Assembly (NCBI RefSeq): GCF_002266435.3
Contig: NZ_CP029426.2
Span: 5,796,001-5,860,000, forward strand
Source of the DNA: Bradyrhizobium amphicarpaeae
GTDB taxonomy: Bacteria; Pseudomonadota; Alphaproteobacteria; Rhizobiales; Xanthobacteraceae
Length of the DNA stretch: 64,000 nucleotides
Reading direction: 5' to 3'
This document shows positions 54,501-64,000 of the stretch, piece after piece (position 1 is the first letter of the stretch; each line of letters starts with the position of its first letter). Both the position numbers and the translations under genes were made by a program. Below the pieces are notes generated by a model that saw only the letters and a program-made list of their open reading frames with translations, made no database searches and was not told the DNA's origin.

Positions 54501-56345
54501 TCACTTCGACCGCTGCATCGCCGGCTTCTCGCTCTTCTGTCTCGCCGCCGACAAATTTTGCGCCGTGTTGATCAGGGCAATGTGTGTCAGCGCCTGCGGG
54601 AAATTGCCGGTCTGGCGACGTTCGACAGTATCGTATTCCTCGGCCAGCAGCCCGACGTCGTTCGCGACGGCGGCGACGCGGTCGAGCAGAACCTGCGCCT
54701 TGTCGAGATCACCCGCCAGCACATGGGCGTCGGCGAGCCACAGCGTGCAAGCCAGGAACGCCCCTTCGAGCGGTGGCTGCCCTGCAGGCAGCTCGCGCGG
54801 ATCATGGCGCAGCACGAAACCGTCCCGCGTCGAACGTTTCTCCATCGCGGTGATGGTGCCGCGGATGCGCGGATCGTCTGCAGGCAGGAAGCCGACCGCC
54901 GGCAGCAGCAGCACGCTGGCATCGAGCAGCTTGGAGCCGTAGGACTCGACGAAGGCATTCTCCTCCGTGTCAAATCCCCTGTTGCAGACGTCTCGATGAA
55001 TGGCATCGCGCAGCGCGCGCCAATGCAGAAGCGGCGCCTTGAAACCGAACGTCTCGGCGCTCTTGATGCCGCGGTCGAAGGCGACCCAGGTCATCACCTT
55101 GGAGAAGACGTAGTGCCGGGGCTGGCCGCGCCGCTCCCAGATGCCGTGGTCTGGCTGGTCCCAGACTTCGGCGAGATGCTGGAGCACCGCGCATTCGAGC
55201 GCCCAGGTTTCTTCGTTCAGCTTCAGCTTGGCCATGCGCGACTGGTGGAAGGCGTCGATCAACTCGCCATAGACGTCGAGCTGAAGCTGCGCATGCGCGG
55301 CATTGCCGACGCGCACCGGCTGCGCGCCCTCATAGCCGTCAAGCCAGCCCGCCTCCCATTCCAAAAGGCGCCGCTGGCCCCAGATCCCGTACATGATCTG
55401 CATGTTCGACGGCGAACCGGCCGCTGCGCGCAAGAGCCAGTTATGCCAGGCCAAGGCTTCCTCGGTGTAGCCCGAGTTCATCAGCGCCAGCAGCGTGAAG
55501 GTGGCGTCGCGCAGCCAGCAGAAGCGATAATCCCAATTCCTGCTGCCGCCGAGTTTTTCCGGCAGTGAGGTGGTCGGCGCCGCAACGATCCCGCCGGTGG
55601 GGGCGAAGGTCAGCGCCTTCAGCGTGATCAGCGAGCGCATGACGAGGTCGCGATAGTCGCCGTCGCGCGTGCTACGGCTGCACCACTCCTGCCAGAATTT
55701 TTCGGTTTCCTGGAGCGCGATCTCCGGATCGATCGGCGCGGGCGGATCGAGATGCGAGGGACCGTAGGTCAGCACGAACGGCACGGTGTCGCCGGCCCTG
55801 ACCTCGAAGTCGGACACCGTGGTCAGGTCCTCGCCGCGGGTTTTGACCGGCGTGCGCAGCACGGTCATGTCCTGGCCGGCGATCGCCAGCAAAGAATGGT
55901 CGATTCGCCGCACCCAGGGAATGTCCACGCCGAAGCCGAAGCGGATCACGAGCTCCATCCGCATCTTCACCGTGCCGGTGACGCCGCGCACCAGACGCAC
56001 GATGTCCGACGCCTTGCCGCGCGGCGGCATGAAGTCGATCAGCGCGACGGTGCCGCTCTTCGTTTCAAACCGCGTTTCGAGGATGAGGGTATCGCCGAGA
56101 TAGCGGCGCGAAATTGTCGTGACGTCGTCGCCAGGCGCGATCAGCCAGCGACCATTCTTGTGGGTGCCTAGGATGGCGGCAAAGCAGGCGTCGGAATCGA
56201 AGGCCGGCCAGCACAGCCAATCGATCGAGCCGTCGCGTCCGACCAGCGCCGCGGTCTCGCAATCGCCGATCAGCGCATAGTCTTCAATTTTTTGGGTCAA
56301 TGTCTTTCGAGCCTGGAAGGTCCCCGCCCAATCAACTCCCGCCAT
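54501..56345 (-). CDS. Glycoside hydrolase family 15 (glucoamylase/trehalase-like)
   Basis: A 614-residue GH15 protein. Typical bacterial GH15 blocks are KIEDYALIGDCETAALVG and GSIDWLCWPAFDSDACF at the N terminus, then GGSRNWDYRFCWLRDATFTL, MQIMYGIWGQRRLLEWE and, towards the C terminus, SYGSKLLDASVLLLPAVGF. No signal peptide is seen, so it acts in the cytoplasm, either on glycogen-derived oligosaccharides or as a trehalase, as shown for some actinobacterial relatives. The ATG at 56345 overlaps the end of malQ by 14 bases; a TTG at 56300 would give the more usual family N terminus. It sits second in a malQ-GH15 operon. Confidence 0.9.
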   Translation of the reverse strand: MAGVDWAGTFQARKTLTQKIEDYALIGDCETAALVGRDGSIDWLCWPAFDSDACFAAILGTHKNGRWLIAPGDDVTTISRRYLGDTLILETRFETKSGTVALIDFMPPRGKASDIVRLVRGVTGTVKMRMELVIRFGFGVDIPWVRRIDHSLLAIAGQDMTVLRTPVKTRGEDLTTVSDFEVRAGDTVPFVLTYGPSHLDPPAPIDPEIALQETEKFWQEWCSRSTRDGDYRDLVMRSLITLKALTFAPTGGIVAAPTTSLPEKLGGSRNWDYRFCWLRDATFTLLALMNSGYTEEALAWHNWLLRAAAGSPSNMQIMYGIWGQRRLLEWEAGWLDGYEGAQPVRVGNAAHAQLQLDVYGELIDAFHQSRMAKLKLNEETWALECAVLQHLAEVWDQPDHGIWERRGQPRHYVFSKVMTWVAFDRGIKSAETFGFKAPLLHWRALRDAIHRDVCNRGFDTEENAFVESYGSKLLDASVLLLPAVGFLPADDPRIRGTITAMEKRSTRDGFVLRHDPRELPAGQPPLEGAFLACTLWLADAHVLAGDLDKAQVLLDRVAAVANDVGLLAEEYDTVERRQTGNFPQALTHIALINTAQNLSAARQKSEKPAMQRSK

Positions 56346-58293
56346 TCAGCGAACGTTCCCGCGTCGCCGCTCGCAAGGCCGTGAGGTCGACCTTCGAGGC
56401 GATCTGGTCGAGCGCGACGGGAAGTCGCTGGCGCCAGTTCGGATGCTCATCGATCGTGCCGGGGATGTTGGGCTGGTCGAGCACGCCGAGCAGATCCTCC
56501 ATCGACACCGCCAATAGCCGCGACGGCGTGCGCGACAGGAAGGCGAGCACCGAATAGAGGTCGTTGGCGGTAATGCCGTTCTGACCCAGGATCTCGTCGA
56601 GCATGCCGAGCGCATCCCAGCGGTCCTGCTCGTTCTCACCGGGATCGAGCCCGAGCGAGCGCTTCACCCTGAGATCGCTGAAGGAGCGCCAGCCCGCATA
56701 GGTGCAGAGATCGTGCGTGTTCAGCGTCACCAGCGCGTTCGGCCTGTAGAAGTCGGCGCTGCGGAAATGTCCGGCATCGTCACGCTCGAACATCATGACG
56801 AGATAGGACCAGATGCCGAAATCCTGCATGGTTTCGCGGAAACCTTCCGGCACGGTGCCGAGATCTTCGCCGATCACGATGCACTTATGCGCCGCGCTCT
56901 CGCGCGCGATGGCTCCGAGCAGCGCCTCGAACGGCATCTGCACATAGGCGCCGTTGTCGGGCTTGAAGCCGCGCGGCACCAGATAGAGCCGCTTCAGCCC
57001 GAGGACATGATCAATCCGGATGGCGCCGGCGTGGCGCATCGAGGCCGCCAGCATGTCGGCAAAGGGCACGAAGGACTGCGCTTCCAGGCCACCGGCATTG
57101 AAGCCGGCGAGACCCCAGTCCTGACCGGCTGTGTTGAGCACATCGGGCGGCGCGCCGACCGCGAGATGCCGCGAGATTGCGATCTGCTCGTTCCAGGCAT
57201 CAAAGCCATTGGACTGCACGCCGACGGCGACGTCGAGATACAATCCGACCCGCATACCGAGCTGGCTGGCAAGCTCCTTGGCGGCGTGAAGCTGGCTATC
57301 TGCCGTCCATTGCACGAATTCGACGAACTCGACCTCACGCCTGTCGGGACCGTTGCGCAACTCCGCGCATTTGGCATCGTCCGGCTGCTGCCATTCCACC
57401 GGCCATTCCCACCACGGCGACGCGAAACGATGGCGCAGCGCCTCGAAGCAGGCAAAGCGGGACAGCAGCGGCGCGCGGTCGGCGCGGAATGCATCGAACT
57501 GATTGCGGCGGACGCCGCTCGCCTTCGTCACGAAAGCGTCAAAGGCGGCGCGCAAGGCCCGCCATTTCAGCGCCGCCATGTCGGCATAGGGGACCCGGTC
57601 GCCCTCGCGCAGCCTAGCGGCGGTCGCTGCTGCATCCGGCACGACGTCTGCCGAGAATTCGGGGATCGCCTCGACGTCGATATAGAGCGGGTTGAGAAAC
57701 AGCCGGCTGTTCGGCGAATAGGGGCTGCAATCGGCCGGATGGTCGTCGAACAGGACGTGCAGCGGATTGAGCCCGACGCCGTCTGCCCCGAGCTGCTTGG
57801 CAAGCCGGACGAGACCGGCCAGATCGGTGAAATCTCCGATGCCCCAATTCCGATCGGAGCGAATGCTGTAGAGCTGCACGGCAAGCAGCCAGCCACGATC
57901 GAAATCACCCCCGAAGGCCCGCTCGGGCGCCACGATCATCGGGACTTCTTCCGAAGCACCTTCGGCGTCGGTCAACGTCAGCCGGTGATAGCCGAGCGGC
58001 AGGTCACTAGGCCATGCGATCACGGGCTCGCGCGTCTCGCCTTGCGCGATGACCTTCGCGTTGCCGGTGATTGTCCATTTGAGGGGCACCCGGCCGGTGG
58101 CCGCCAGTTCGGTGCGCGAATGCCTCAAGGCGCGCAGCACCACCGGTCCCTCGACAAAGCGGTAAACCCGCTTCTCCGGCAGGGCATCGAGGATGGATTT
58201 GAGCGCCACGGGGTCGGTGACCCGCAGCTTGCCGAGGGCGTCGACAAATTCGGATTGAACGCCCTTGATCCGGGCTTGAGCTAAAAGATCCAT
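56332..58293 (-). CDS. malQ: 4-alpha-glucanotransferase (amylomaltase), GH77
   Basis: A 653-residue MalQ. An N-terminal beta-rich extension (1-about 130) precedes the GH77 barrel. It has AVQLYSIRSDRNWGIGDFTD, NPLHVLFDDHPADCSPYSP in overlapping parts, the nucleophile in IRIDHVLGLKRLY, the acid/base Glu in IVIGEDLGTVPEGF and the third carboxylate in NTHDLCTYAGW. All catalytic residues are present. It transfers glucan segments between maltodextrins. It is divergent from the GlgE-like gene across about 200 bases and co-transcribed with GH15. Confidence 0.95.
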   Translation of the reverse strand: MDLLAQARIKGVQSEFVDALGKLRVTDPVALKSILDALPEKRVYRFVEGPVVLRALRHSRTELAATGRVPLKWTITGNAKVIAQGETREPVIAWPSDLPLGYHRLTLTDAEGASEEVPMIVAPERAFGGDFDRGWLLAVQLYSIRSDRNWGIGDFTDLAGLVRLAKQLGADGVGLNPLHVLFDDHPADCSPYSPNSRLFLNPLYIDVEAIPEFSADVVPDAAATAARLREGDRVPYADMAALKWRALRAAFDAFVTKASGVRRNQFDAFRADRAPLLSRFACFEALRHRFASPWWEWPVEWQQPDDAKCAELRNGPDRREVEFVEFVQWTADSQLHAAKELASQLGMRVGLYLDVAVGVQSNGFDAWNEQIAISRHLAVGAPPDVLNTAGQDWGLAGFNAGGLEAQSFVPFADMLAASMRHAGAIRIDHVLGLKRLYLVPRGFKPDNGAYVQMPFEALLGAIARESAAHKCIVIGEDLGTVPEGFRETMQDFGIWSYLVMMFERDDAGHFRSADFYRPNALVTLNTHDLCTYAGWRSFSDLRVKRSLGLDPGENEQDRWDALGMLDEILGQNGITANDLYSVLAFLSRTPSRLLAVSMEDLLGVLDQPNIPGTIDEHPNWRQRLPVALDQIASKVDLTALRAATRERSLNGGS

Positions 58294-58497: not shown

Positions 58498-60444
58498 GTG
58501 AACAAGACAATTCAAACTGTCGAGAGCGCCGCTGCCGGCAGCGCTTTCCTCATCGAAGACATCTACCCCCTGATCGATAGCGGCCGCTTCGCCGTGAAAC
58601 GGATCGCGGGCGAACGGGTCGAGGTCTGGGCCGACATCTATCGCGACGGCGACGCCGTGGTCGGAGCCGCGTTGATCTGGCGACAGGAGCAGAACCGGGA
58701 ATGGCAGAGCGAGCCGATGATCCATCACGGCAATGACCGCTGGTCCGCCGCATTCACGCCGGTCGAGCCCGGCCAGTATGTCTACGCGATCGAGGCCTGG
58801 ACCGACGAGTTCGCCACCTGGTCGCATGGTGTCGCGCGCAAGCAGCGCATGGGTGCTGATGTCAGCCTGGATGCGATCGAGGGTGCGGGGCTCCTGACCA
58901 AGGCGCATGGCGCGCCACAGGACGCCGCGACGTTCATCGTCAAACAATGCGAGGATTATCTTCAGACCGGCGATGTCGCCCCGCTGCTTGCGGCCGAACT
59001 CGGCAATGCCATGGCGGAGAGCCAATCCCGGCCTGACCTGACCCGCTCGCAACTTTTTCCGCTGACCGTCGACCGCGACAAAGCGCGCTTCGGCGCCTGG
59101 TATCAGATGATGCCGCGCAGCCAGAGCCAAGTCGCAGGTCAGCACGGCACGTTGCGCGACTGCATCGCCCGCGTACCTGACATCGCCGCGATGGGTTTCG
59201 ACGTGCTCTATTTCACGCCGATCCACCCGATCGGCCGCACGCGGCGCAAAGGCCTCAACAATGCGCCGGTGGCGACCGAAGGCGGACCCGGCTCGCCCTA
59301 TGCGATCGGCTCCCCAGAAGGCGGCCACGATGCGCTGCATCCCGAACTGGGCACCATCGAGGATTTCCGTGCGCTGGTCGCAACCTGCCTCGAATATGGC
59401 CTCGAGCTCGCGCTCGACTTCGCCGTGCAGTGCTCGCCGGACCATCCCTGGCTGACGCAGCATCCGGAATGGTTCAAATGGCGGCCGGACCGCTCGGTGC
59501 GGACGGCCGATGGCCTTTATTCGGACATCGTGATCCCCGATTTCGCATCGGTCGACCGGGCTGGACTGTGGAATGCATTTCGCGACGCCATGCTGTTCTG
59601 GATCGACCATGGTGTCACCATCTTCGCCATCGACAATCACGACACCGCGCCCTTCCCGTTCTGGGACTGGCTGATCCGCGACATCCGCCGACGGCATCCC
59701 GAGGTGATCCTGTTCTCGAAGACGTTTGCCCGGCCGAAACTGATGAAGGGCCTCGCCAAGCTCGGCTTTGCGCAGTCCTTCTCCTATTTCCCGTGGCGCA
59801 CGACAAAATGGGAGCTGGAGCAATATCTCGGCGAGCTGACGCGCTATCCCGAGCGCGACTTCTATCGCCCGAACCTGTTCGTCAACACGCCCGACCTGCT
59901 GCCCTATCATCTCCAGAGCGGCGAAGCCTGGGCGTTCAAGTCGCGCGTTGCGCTGGCGGCGACGTTGTCGGGCAGTTACGGCATCTACAGCGGGTTCGAG
60001 CTGCTGGAACACGAAGCGATCCCTGGGCGCGAGGAGTATCTGGATTCAGAGAAATACCAGATCCGGCAACGCGACTGGGACCGGTCCGGCAACATCAAGT
60101 CCTACATCGCTGTGCTCAACCGCATCCGCAACGACAATGCCGCGCTCCAGCAAACGGCGAACTTGCGCTTTATCGGCATTGAAGACAGCGAGACGATCGC
60201 CTTCGTCAAGGAGGCGACCGATCTCGCCAACACCGTCGTGATCGTGATCGCTCTGTCGCGCCATGTGCGTGAATTCTGGCTGCCGCTCGGCGACGTCACC
60301 GTTGACGCGGGCGGTCAGCGGCACCATGTCACGACACTCGAAAACCTTCTCACCGGCGAACAGTCCCGCATCGAATGGGGCGGGATCAGGTTGCGTATCG
60401 ATCCCGACCGCGATCCCGCGCTCCTGTTCCGCTGCCTGGCGTAA
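58498..60444 (+). CDS. glgE: GlgE-like GH13_3 protein with missing catalytic residues
   Basis: A 648-residue protein with the GlgE architecture: an N-terminal DUF3416-type domain (about 1-185), a GH13 barrel with [15 protein letters not shown], and a C-terminal block ([19 protein letters not shown]). GlgE uses maltose-1-phosphate to extend alpha-glucans. Key sites differ from the GlgE motifs I know. The nucleophile Asp379 and third Asp466 (VNTPD) remain. The invariant Arg two residues before the nucleophile is Ala377 (FAIDN instead of FRVDN). The acid/base Glu is Lys408 (FSKTF instead of LAEAF). The phosphate-binding NPPKKY segment reads TADGLY. It may be inactive or have another role. The GTG start at 58498 is the best available. 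It is followed after 11 bases by treS. Confidence 0.82.
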
Positions 60445-60455
60445 GGGTCCACGCC

Positions 60456-63400
60456 ATGAATGTTCTGTCTTCCGTCGACACCAAGAAAGCCGAGGCTGCC
60501 GAGATCGTGGATGAGCTCTGGTACAAGGACGCCATCATCTACCAGCTCCACGTCAAGGCCTTCGCCGACAGCAACAATGACGGCATCGGCGATTTCGCCG
60601 GCCTGACCGAGAAGCTGCCCTATCTGCAGGAGCTCGGCGTCACCGCGCTGTGGCTGCTGCCGTTCTACCCCTCGCCCGGCCGCGACGACGGCTACGACAT
60701 CGGCGACTACGGCTCGGTCAATCCCGATTTCGGGACGATGAAGGATTTCAAGCGCTTCATCCAGGAAGCGCAGAAGCGCGGCCTGCGCGTCATCACCGAG
60801 CTGGTCGTCAACCACACCTCGGACCAGCACAACTGGTTCAAGCGCGCGCGCCGCAGCCCCGCAGGCTCGAGCGCCCGCAACTGGTATGTCTGGAGCGACA
60901 CCGACCAGAAATATCAGGGCACCCGTATCATCTTCACCGACACGGAGAAGTCGAACTGGACCTGGGATCACGAGGCCGGCGCGTTCTATTGGCACCGCTT
61001 CTTCTCGCACCAGCCGGACCTCAATTTCGACAATCCCCGCGTGGTCAGCGCGCTGATCCAGGTGATGAAGCGCTGGCTGGACGCCGGCGTCGACGGCTTC
61101 CGGCTGGACGCCATTCCCTATCTGTGCGAGCGCGAGGGCACCTCGAACGAGAATCTGCCCGAGACGCATGCCATCATCAAGCGCCTGCGCCAGGAGCTGG
61201 ATTCCTACTCCAAGGGCAAGCTGCTGCTGGCCGAGGCCAACCAATGGCCGGAGGACGTGCAGGAATATTTCGGCCGTGGCGACGAATGCCACATGGCCTA
61301 CCACTTCCCGCTGATGCCGCGCATCTACATGGCGATCGCGCAGGAGGACCGCTTCCCGATCACCGACATTCTGCGCCAGACGCCCGACATTCCCTCGAGC
61401 TGCCAATGGGCGCTGTTCCTGCGCAACCATGACGAGCTGACGCTGGAAATGGTCACCGACGTCGAGCGCGATTATCTCTGGACCACCTACGCCAACGACC
61501 CCCGCGCCCGCATCAATGTCGGCATCCGCCGGCGCCTCGCGCCACTGATGGACAATGACCGGCGCAAGATCGAGCTGATGAACTCGCTGTTGCTGTCCTT
61601 CCCGGGCACCCCGATCATCTATTACGGCGACGAGATCGGGATGGGCGACAACATCTATCTCGGCGACCGCAACGGCGTACGCACGCCGATGCAATGGAGC
61701 CCGGACCGCAACGGCGGCTTTTCGCGTTGCGACCCGGCGCGACTCTACGCACCGCTGATCATGGACCCGGTCTACGGCTATGAATCGGTGAACGTCGAGG
61801 CGCAGTCACGCAGCCTGTCGTCGCTGCTCAGCGCCACCAAGCGGCTGATCTCTGTGCGCAAGTCGACGCTCGCTTTCGGCCGCGGCACCATGACCTTCAT
61901 CCGCCCGGCCAACCGCGCCGTGCTCGCCTATGTCCGGCAGTATCGCGACGAAGTGATCCTCTGCGTCGCCAATTTGTCGCGCGCAGCGCAGGCGACCGAG
62001 CTCGACCTGTCGCCCTGGAAGGACCGCATCCCCCAGGAGATGCTCGGCCGCACCCGCTTCCCCGCGATCGGCGAGCTGCCCTACATGATCACGCTGGGGC
62101 CCTACGGCTTCTACTGGTTCCAGCTTCAGGAGCGCGACAAGTCCGAGCCGGTGACGCCGCGCGCGGTGCCGGAGTTCGAGACGCTGGTGGTGCCGGTGAA
62201 TTCCAACTGGGTGTCGCTCGCCCGCGAGCGCGGCGTGTTCGAGCGCGAGGTGCTGCCGGGATTCTTGTCGCGGACGCGGTGGTATCCCGAGCACGATCCC
62301 AAGCACATCAAGACCACACTGACCTCGGCGGTGCCGTTCTGCGACATCGGCGACAACAGGCCCTGGATCGCATTCTTCGAGTCGGCAGAGCAGGACGCCG
62401 CGTCACGCTACGTGCTGCCGATGCAGATCGAGTGGGTCCGCTTCGACCGCGAGCGCTTCAACCCGAGGGCTCTCGCCGCCGTGCGCCAGGGCGCGCGCGA
62501 GGGCACGCTGCTCGACGTTGCCACCGACCAGATCTTCATCGGCCTGTTCCTGCGCAATCTGTCGCAGAATCTGGTGGTGGAAGAGAACAATCTGCGGCTC
62601 GAATTCAAGGCGACCAGCCGCTTCACCGATTACACCATCAAGGAGCCCGAACGCATCCGCGCGATCGAGCAGGCGAACAGCACCGCGCTGGTCGACAACC
62701 AGTACGTCGCCAAGATCTACCGCCAGCTCGAAAGCGGCATCAACCCCGAGATCGAGATCGGCCAATATCTCACGGAGATCGCGCGCTTTGCCAATACGCC
62801 AGCACTGCTCGGCAGCGTCGAGCTGGTCGAGGGCGACCAGCGCAGCGCGCTCGGCGTGTTGCATGCCTATGTCGAGAACCAGGGCGACGGCTGGATCGTG
62901 ACCACCGGCTATCTCGATCGCTATATCGACGAGCAGCGCGTGCTGTCGGCGGGCGAAGCCCCCCGCGAGACCCAGGAACAAGCGCCGTATTTACACTTCA
63001 TCGCGCAGATCGGCAGGCGGCTCGCGGAGCTGCACGTTGCCCTCGCCGCGGCAAAGACCGACGATCTGGCCCCGGAGCCGATCGGCTCCGCGCACGTCAA
63101 GCGACTTGTGTCCGAGCTCAAGGCGCGGGCCGAGCGGGTTTTCGAACGGCTGGCCGACAGCCGCGACGGCCTGCGGGAGGCGCACCGGCCGTTGATCGAC
63201 CGGCTCGCCGCCGTGCGCGCGTCCCTGCCTGATCACCTGAATGCGCTATTGCCTTCCGGGATCGGCGGGCTGAACATCCGTCATCATGGCGACTTCCGCC
63301 TCGGGCAGACCCTGATCGTGAAGGACGATATCTTCATCATCGACTTCGACGGCGATCCGCGCCTGCCGCTGGCCGACAAGCGGCGCAAGCTGCCTGCCGC

Positions 63401-63749
63401 GCGCGACGTCGCCGGCTTGATCCGCTCGATCGACCTTTCGGTCAGCGCGGCACTGAGCCGCGCACTCACCGGTGCCTCCGACGAGCAGGGCCGGATCACC
63501 GCCGCGCTCGACGAATGGCGCGAGCGGGCCGCCGCAACCTTCCTGTCCGCCTATCGCGAAGCCATGACCGACCGACGTCTGTGGCCGGAAGATCGGAAAT
63601 CCGCGGAAGGCCTGTTAAGGTTTTTCCTGCTTGATCAAGCGTTCAATGAAGTAGAGTACGAGCTGTCCAACCGGCCTGAGGGGCTCCATGCGCCGCTGAC
63701 CGGACTGCTTCGCATTCTGTCCAGCGCCGGGAGCGAAGCCCATGCCTAA
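60456..63749 (+). CDS. treS: Trehalose synthase (TreS) fused to maltokinase
   Basis: A 1097-residue fusion. The TreS GH13 domain (1-about 560) has [15 protein letters not shown], the nucleophile in [13 protein letters not shown], the acid/base Glu in LLAEANQWP and the third Asp in [11 protein letters not shown], all intact. The C-terminal maltokinase (about 600-1097) has [16 protein letters not shown], the kinase catalytic loop [15 protein letters not shown] and the metal-binding IIDFDGDP. The first half isomerises trehalose and maltose; the second phosphorylates maltose to maltose-1-phosphate, the GlgE substrate. AAGGG precedes the ATG at 60456. Its stop overlaps glgB by 8 bases. Confidence 0.95.
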
Positions 63750-64000
63750 ACTACCTGCCGAGGCCTATGCGATCATCGAGGGCCGCCACTCCGACCCCTT
63801 CCACTATCTCGGGCTGCATCCCGAGGGCGATAAGAGCGTGGTGCGTGCCTTTCTCCCCGAGGCCTCGAATGTCGAGGCGCTCGGCGAGCATGGCGAAGTC
63901 GCGCCGCTCGACCGCGTGCATGATGCCGGGCTTTTCATCGGGGCCCTGCCCAACGGCTCGAAGCACTATCAGTTGCGTGCGAAATTCGCGGGCAATGTCG
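63742..64000 (+). CDS. glgB: 1,4-alpha-glucan branching enzyme, N-terminal part (cut by window)
   Basis: The first 86 codons of GlgB. After [20 protein letters not shown] comes HYLGLHPEG, the N1/CBM48 region seen at the start of long GlgB proteins, then VVRAFLPEA and [11 protein letters not shown]. The gene continues past the right edge. It overlaps the treS stop by 8 bases, so GlgE-like, TreS-Mak and GlgB form one coupled operon for making branched alpha-glucan from trehalose or maltose. Confidence 0.9.

Follow-up and report, generated by a model that had tools for sequence, protein, structure and literature searches.

A GlgE-like protein of Bradyrhizobium without canonical catalytic residues, and matching changes in the neighbouring TreS-fused maltokinase

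GlgE attracts interest as a drug target because its loss, in a cell whose kinase still works, floods that cell with toxic maltose-1-phosphate. What, then, is to be made of a gene that occupies the place of glgE in Bradyrhizobium amphicarpaeae and seems to encode a protein without the catalytic residues of GlgE? The first-pass annotation of the window (the whole 64,000-nucleotide stretch of DNA analysed here) described such a protein, with the general acid, the invariant Arg and the maltose-1-phosphate site missing, in an otherwise intact operon whose kinase would make maltose-1-phosphate. It offered three options, namely a regulatory or scaffold pseudoenzyme, an enzyme that catalyses something else, or another GlgE elsewhere in the genome.

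Active-site residues of the GlgE-like protein

The gene and its altered segments lie at the following window positions, with equivalent residues numbered as in Streptomyces coelicolor GlgE1.

58498..60444, + strand: GlgE-like (GH13_3) coding sequence, GTG start, 648 amino acids, without the acid/base Glu and the GH13 Arg
59503..59520, + strand: lid TADGLY (residues 336-341) in place of NPPKKY, aligned three residues shorter, ligands N352 and K355 gone
59623..59649, + strand: FAIDNHDTA (residues 376-384), Arg392 replaced by Ala377, nucleophile Asp379 kept, His397 replaced by Asp382
59713..59727, + strand: FSKTF (residues 406-410), acid/base Glu423 replaced by Lys408
59893..59895, + strand: third catalytic Asp, Asp466 (Asp480 in S. 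coelicolor), kept

The 648-residue frame translates with ILFSKTFA in one unbroken reading. S. coelicolor GlgE1 aligned with the protein at 490 bits over residues 18-643 (HMMER), the altered segments lying opposite AENPPKKY, IFRVDNPHTKP and IFLAEAF, and the GlgE N/S domain (GlgE_dom_N_S, PF11896) was recognised at 180.8 bits (cut-off 25). In a MAFFT alignment with the same enzyme, R392 (A377), P396 (H), H397 (D), K399 (A) and E423 (K408) were changed, D394 (D379), N395 and D480 (D466) were kept, and NPPKKY aligned with GL, a three-residue gap and Y. The substitutions first reported, Ala377 for Arg, Lys408 for Glu and TADGLY for NPPKKY beside a retained Asp379, were thus confirmed by translation and by both alignments, and so was the absence of Glu423, Arg392, N352 and K355 relative to a biochemically studied GlgE. 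Misalignment, which the annotation had itself argued against, and sequencing error were rejected because Lys423 recurs in 170 of 170 related rows (119 database proteins and 51 loci, in which one genome may count more than once).

The claim that the maltose-1-phosphate site is missing held for its phosphate half. Among the four phosphate ligands listed in the available part of PMC4526890 (N352, K355, Y357 and N395), N352 and K355 are lost and Y357 and N395 are kept. The sugar half is intact, with the -2 maltose subsite retained at K264, N268, S279, A282, D359, K534 and Y535 (MAFFT), likewise Q324 (MAFFT) and the acceptor Trp448; the roles of these residues in S. coelicolor GlgE follow excerpts of PMC4526890 and PMC5076824.

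Overall, the protein resembles GlgE (GH13_3, with S. coelicolor GlgE1 as reference) in its full-length homology, GlgE_dom_N_S, nucleophile Asp, third Asp, N395, -2 subsite and Trp448, and is unlike that enzyme in carrying Lys for the acid/base Glu, Ala for the GH13 Arg, a short lid without N352 and K355, and Asp for H397. Non-catalytic GH13 relatives that keep the fold without the full catalytic set are known in the SLC3 heavy chains 4F2hc and rBAT, which are subunits of animal membrane transporters and not members of GH13_3.

A maltosyltransferase that still works, with another residue supplying acid/base help, would be compatible with the kept nucleophile, D480, N395, Y357 and -2 subsite, and phosphate is a fairly good leaving group. 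Such an enzyme would nonetheless be very surprising, since Arg392, N352 and K355 are lost as well, the kinase that makes the donor is altered in every such locus read, and mutation of Glu423 leads to loss of activity in S. coelicolor GlgE according to excerpts of PMC5076824. The option of another GlgE is excluded for the source genome: a whole-genome search of its single 7.03 Mb contig found this one copy, and the sole other match was weak (34% over residues 186-322).

The operon and its fused kinase

The neighbouring genes and the kinase motifs lie as follows.

56332..58293, - strand: malQ (4-alpha-glucanotransferase), divergent neighbour, used as a control gene
60375..63749, + strand: TreS-maltokinase (TreS-Mak) fusion, likely true start ATG at 60453 (residue 27), right after the glgE stop
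62667..62681, + strand: kinase P-loop EQANS (residues 765-769), Ser136 replaced by Ala767 in the source genome
63285..63308, + strand: kinase catalytic loop HGDFRLGQ (residues 971-978), His307 replaced by Arg975
63342..63356, + strand: kinase DFE motif, here DFDGD (residues 990-994), Glu324 replaced by Asp992 and Glu326 by Asp994
63742..64000, + strand: start of glgB, a control gene that extends past the window end

As in GlgE systems, the GlgE-like gene stands in an operon with TreS-Mak and GlgB. The gene order (divergent malQ, glgE-like, treS-mak fusion, glgB) is the same in two loci with canonical GlgE, L060 and L069. Canonical Bradyrhizobium GlgE (P0120, L060) shares the locus, this gene order and about 67-72% identity with the GlgE-like protein; unlike it, the canonical form keeps every catalytic and phosphate-site residue checked and is accompanied by intact kinase motifs. 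TreS of the source genome retains its GH13 motifs. Of three such motifs looked for in glgB, two were recovered, and the acid/base one escaped the search string used. The longest TreS-Mak frame overlaps the end of glgE by 70 bases (60375-60453 region), and the true start is probably the ATG at 60453 because many relatives align only from residue 23-27.

Beside malQ, at 54501-56345, lies a gene for a GH15-type protein whose top NCBIfam hits, models of archaeal trehalases, score far under their thresholds. Canonical loci have this gene as well (18 of 20, with short contigs accounting for the remaining two); nothing new was therefore brought in at the variant locus, and gene gain beside the variant was rejected.

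The description of the operon as intact, with a kinase making maltose-1-phosphate, did not survive a reading of the kinase domain. The fused kinase matches the TIGR02457 putative maltokinase model (645 bits, cut-off 375) and, like Mak/Pep2 and other TreS-Mak fusions, keeps the HGD base Asp305, the Mg-binding Asp322, Gln310 and the phosphate-binding Lys149. Unlike Mak/Pep2, it has Arg for His307, Asp for Glu324 and Glu326 and, in the source genome, Ala for the P-loop Ser136. In mycobacterial Mak, His307 lies in the proposed maltose pocket and Glu324 contacts an Mg-bound water, changes of Asn137 or Asp322 abolished activity, and a change of Ser136 drastically reduced it (excerpts of PMC4306142). 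Site 136 drifts, since the source genome has Ala while other members of the clade with Lys423 (the Lys clade) keep Ser; Thr occurs there in some canonical loci elsewhere. Fourteen TreS-Mak columns separate 29 loci of the clade from 19 canonical loci, among them the change of His to Arg in HGDxHLGQ (975) and that of Glu to Asp in DFE (992). With Asp305, Asp322, Gln310, Lys149 and in most of the clade Asn137 in place, the fused kinase may still phosphorylate something. Because the main catalytic Asp residues are kept, one can be less sure that it is inactive than for the kinases of other lineages.

Joint states of GlgE and kinase across the genus

The variants form a fixed clade. In the same 170 rows, A392 occurs in 167, H396 in 169, D397 and D394 in 168 each, and D480 in all. 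Lys423 was found in 119 of the best 120 homologues listed, the exception being P0120 (canonical, 71% identity), and the best 120 matches listed for P0120 were all canonical at the checked positions. The 239 listed proteins divide into 120 with Arg392 and Glu423 and 119 with Ala, Val or Thr392 and Lys423, with no intermediate (mixed 392/423) state among them. Between 29 clade loci and 20 canonical loci, 22 positions are fixed differently (90% and 95% thresholds). Among the matches listed, the closest named homologues belong to Bradyrhizobium, and the Lys type includes proteins under the names B. japonicum and B. diazoefficiens (P0020, P0095, P0119).

A scan of 265 genomes of the genus gave matches in 223 and none in 42. 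Sorted by our own reading of the scan, a full-length open Lys-clade copy (at least 76% identity, no internal stop) is present in 130 of the 265, assigned by identity, with residues read in 64 of the 130; the remaining genomes carry canonical GlgE at the locus (31), canonical GlgE elsewhere only (9), a form in which HPPQRW or similar replaces NPPKKY (29, the HPPQRW type), an odd form (8), or only a weak match to another GH13 (16). The Lys type occupies the position that canonical GlgE holds, by synteny, in other Bradyrhizobium. Two genomes whose TreS places them in the Lys lineage have no whole glgE frame: in G240 (locus L242) it is split in two, and in G121 (locus L129) it is truncated to about 120 codons. 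Assembly errors are possible in both; the protein is therefore perhaps not essential in that lineage.

The state of the kinase follows that of GlgE at every locus scored. All 29 canonical GlgE loci scored in the genus have the intact motif set (19 + 10; L063 and L163, on contig ends with no whole kinase, are omitted from the count), and all 121 loci without a canonical GlgE at its place have an altered one. The latter comprise 48 Lys-clade loci (from 48 of the 130 genomes, 29 + 19), 29 of HPPQRW type, 8 odd loci (G240 and G121 included), 31 GlgE-less genomes (of 35 examined, from the 58 with no match, 42, or only a weak one, 16) and 5 of the 9 genomes with relocated canonical GlgE only. The HPPQRW type counts as non-canonical here despite its intact catalytic D and E; under D/E-only scoring these would be mismatch rows. 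The motifs were intact as well in 8 of 8 further kinases, three stand-alone Maks (G207, G236, G237) and five fused Maks from other genera in the family.

In a control across many phyla, 74 of 80 named loci had canonical GlgE, at least 8 of the 80 overlapping genomes of the genus set (2 of them canonical). An adjacent Mak was found for 60, and all 60 keep N137, D305, H307, Q310, D322 and E324 (DFE). Long match spans in GlgE of other phyla raised the possibility of an internal insertion, which tblastn left unconfirmed in 4 of 4 loci tried.

On a tree of the TreS domain alone (115 DNA rows, GlgE and Mak columns excluded), for which the software flagged a long branch to the outgroup, each trait changes 10 times and always together with the other, in counts that cannot separate gain from loss. 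No row of the trait table lies off the diagonal (91 and 24, which are row counts and not event counts), and seven independent pairs on well supported branches were all concordant (sign test, p 0.0156). From these residue patterns, loss of GlgE function appears to be confined to loci with an altered kinase, over about ten transitions on one tree.

The loci outside the Lys clade show how varied these changes are. HPPQRW-type GlgE, found in 29 genomes (named members B. embrapense, B. macuxiense, B. uaiense and B. viridifuturi) that we take to be the B. elkanii group, keeps Arg392, Asp394 and Glu423 and has lost phosphate ligands, and its kinases have Pro for Ser136 in 28 of 29 and His for Asn137 in 28 of 29; this form has possibly given up the use of maltose-1-phosphate. 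Loci of this kind are L132-L148, L150-L157, L171, L173, L175, L176 and L300-L304. Among the odd forms, D394K with N395D (G166, G096) is paired with a changed Mg-binding Asp322 in both kinases, and E423G with K534T (G219, G072) with Ser136Pro and Asn137His; G065 has D394T, N395D and E423G together, and G108 a diverged copy.

Where GlgE is absent, the fused kinase was altered in 31 of 31 genomes scored, and glgE was missing from between malQ and treS in 6 of 6 mapped. In at least nine Bradyrhizobium genomes the only GlgE is a different, canonical one at another place (L111-L113, L178-L183, L185). In the five of these that were scored, the fused kinase was altered in 5 of 5 and a second Mak match adjoins the relocated GlgE in 5 of 5; this stand-alone Mak was intact in 3 of 3 read. 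Such a pair is apparently a re-acquired GlgE pathway.

Constraint on the locus and the meaning of the changes

Median pairwise dN/dS, Lys clade versus canonical loci, was 0.175 versus 0.110 for GlgE and 0.257 versus 0.164 for Mak, and 0.050 versus 0.080 for TreS, 0.080 versus 0.098 for glgB and 0.155 versus 0.192 for malQ; these contrasts are approximate because of synonymous saturation in the canonical set (dS ~0.87). A second computation agreed for the Lys clade and gave 0.174 for HPPQRW GlgE and 0.132 for HPPQRW Mak, the latter below the canonical 0.164, and Mak of GlgE-less or relocated-GlgE genomes had 0.306. In the Lys clade it is GlgE and Mak in particular that are under weaker constraint, though both remain far from neutral, and HPPQRW Mak departs from this pattern. 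Ala377, His381, Asp382 and Ala384 stay the same although their codons show synonymous variation; Lys408 is AAG in 29 of 29 loci and therefore gives no signal of this kind. Ligand positions were kept at 12 of 19 and other canonical-invariant positions at 158 of 210, so that ligands are not clearly better kept, a result that neither supports nor strongly opposes retained sugar binding.

The raised dN/dS of both genes is what slow decay would produce, with GlgE and Mak as passengers whose frames stay open since glgE abuts treS-mak and Mak is fused to TreS. The split or truncated glgE of two Lys-lineage genomes and the absence of the gene from its place in the six mapped GlgE-less genomes fit as well. 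Decay is unlikely, however, given the full-length open copies in 130 of 265 genomes, a dN/dS of about 0.17, far below 1, and the four residues held against synonymous change.

Retention for a new catalytic function, that is, a remodelled GlgE (Lys423, Asp397, Ala392) and a re-specified kinase (Arg307) acting on another donor or in other glycosyl transfer, would fit too, in that the near-invariant Lys423, Asp397 and His396 look selected, D394 and D480 are almost always kept, and the kinase retains Asp305, Asp322 and Gln310. We consider it quite unlikely: Lys is a poor candidate for an acid/base and Arg392 is gone, in other lineages both partners show plain losses (D394K alongside loss of the Mg Asp, E423G alongside a changed P-loop), and constraint on the clade's GlgE and Mak is weaker than on their canonical relatives, not stronger.

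Lost catalytic residues, an open frame and clade-wide purifying selection together mark a retained pseudoenzyme, and all three are found here. We place at about 0.7 the probability that the GlgE-like gene descends from glgE and has been retained without catalytic function, and that the maltose-1-phosphate branch was shut down repeatedly and in coupled fashion, leaving GlgE and the kinase domain to persist beside TreS as non-catalytic components. Of the three options first offered, the pseudoenzyme has the best support. Against this reading stand the catalytic residues still present in the clade's kinase, the near-invariance of Lys423, Asp397 and His396, the split and truncated genes of G240 and G121, ligand positions no better kept than other invariant ones, the dN/dS of HPPQRW Mak, and the dependence of the coupling on how HPPQRW-type GlgE is scored.

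How might such a shutdown have come about? The maltose-1-phosphate branch may have become dispensable because another glycogen route is present, glgA being above cut-off in 251 of 257 genus genomes, the source genome included. In the clade of B. japonicum and B. diazoefficiens, the fused kinase would have altered its residues for making maltose-1-phosphate, and GlgE would have given up part of its phosphate clamp along with acid/base catalysis, with constraint maintained on TreS, GlgB and MalQ. The kinase would have had to go with or before GlgE, because maltose-1-phosphate is toxic when GlgE is missing (excerpts of PMC4526890 and PMC5076824), and this known toxicity is the likely driver of the coupling. 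We infer that neither the GlgE-like protein nor the kinase domain retains its old activity.

TreS would now deliver maltose to MalQ and other maltose users, with which the sugar levels of a B. diazoefficiens treS mutant are consistent (more trehalose and less maltose, in an earlier study cited in the available part of PMC8092242). The pseudo-GlgE and pseudo-Mak, with the -2 subsite and Trp448 kept, would serve as maltose- or alpha-glucan-binding or structural partners of TreS. Such partnership is probably the best reading of the retained proteins by analogy with mycobacteria, where Mak docks on TreS and is more active in the complex (excerpts of PMC6509496), and the GlgE-like protein may have a regulatory or scaffold role. 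That kinase and transferase were jointly turned into pseudoenzymes that sense or hold maltose or alpha-glucan and control TreS, with a rebuilt Lys423/Asp397 site, is a tentative extension to which we give well under even odds.

Among the open-access PMC papers listed as matches, no title or abstract opening described an inactive GlgE or maltokinase in Bradyrhizobium, and the available part of a 2024 review (PMC11046441) makes no mention of Bradyrhizobium. The available part of PMC8084333 suggests that a desiccation phenotype of B. japonicum may come from alpha-glucan made by GlgE and remarks on the complete glgE operon. Linked by species name, this suggestion rests on an operon with two key activities in doubt, and the remark needs revisiting.

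On our reading of the sequences, the maltose-1-phosphate module appears to be dying independently several times within Bradyrhizobium, and a loss of GlgE restricted to kinase-altered loci is what maltose-1-phosphate toxicity predicts. Automatic names such as maltosyltransferase are probably wrong in about half of the genus genomes scanned (the 130 of 265 assigned by identity, 64 of them with residues read), and those of them annotated with the GlgE glycogen route probably no longer run it. If the paired pseudoenzymes are real, the genus would be a natural experiment in which a pathway with a toxic intermediate has been dismantled only at both ends.
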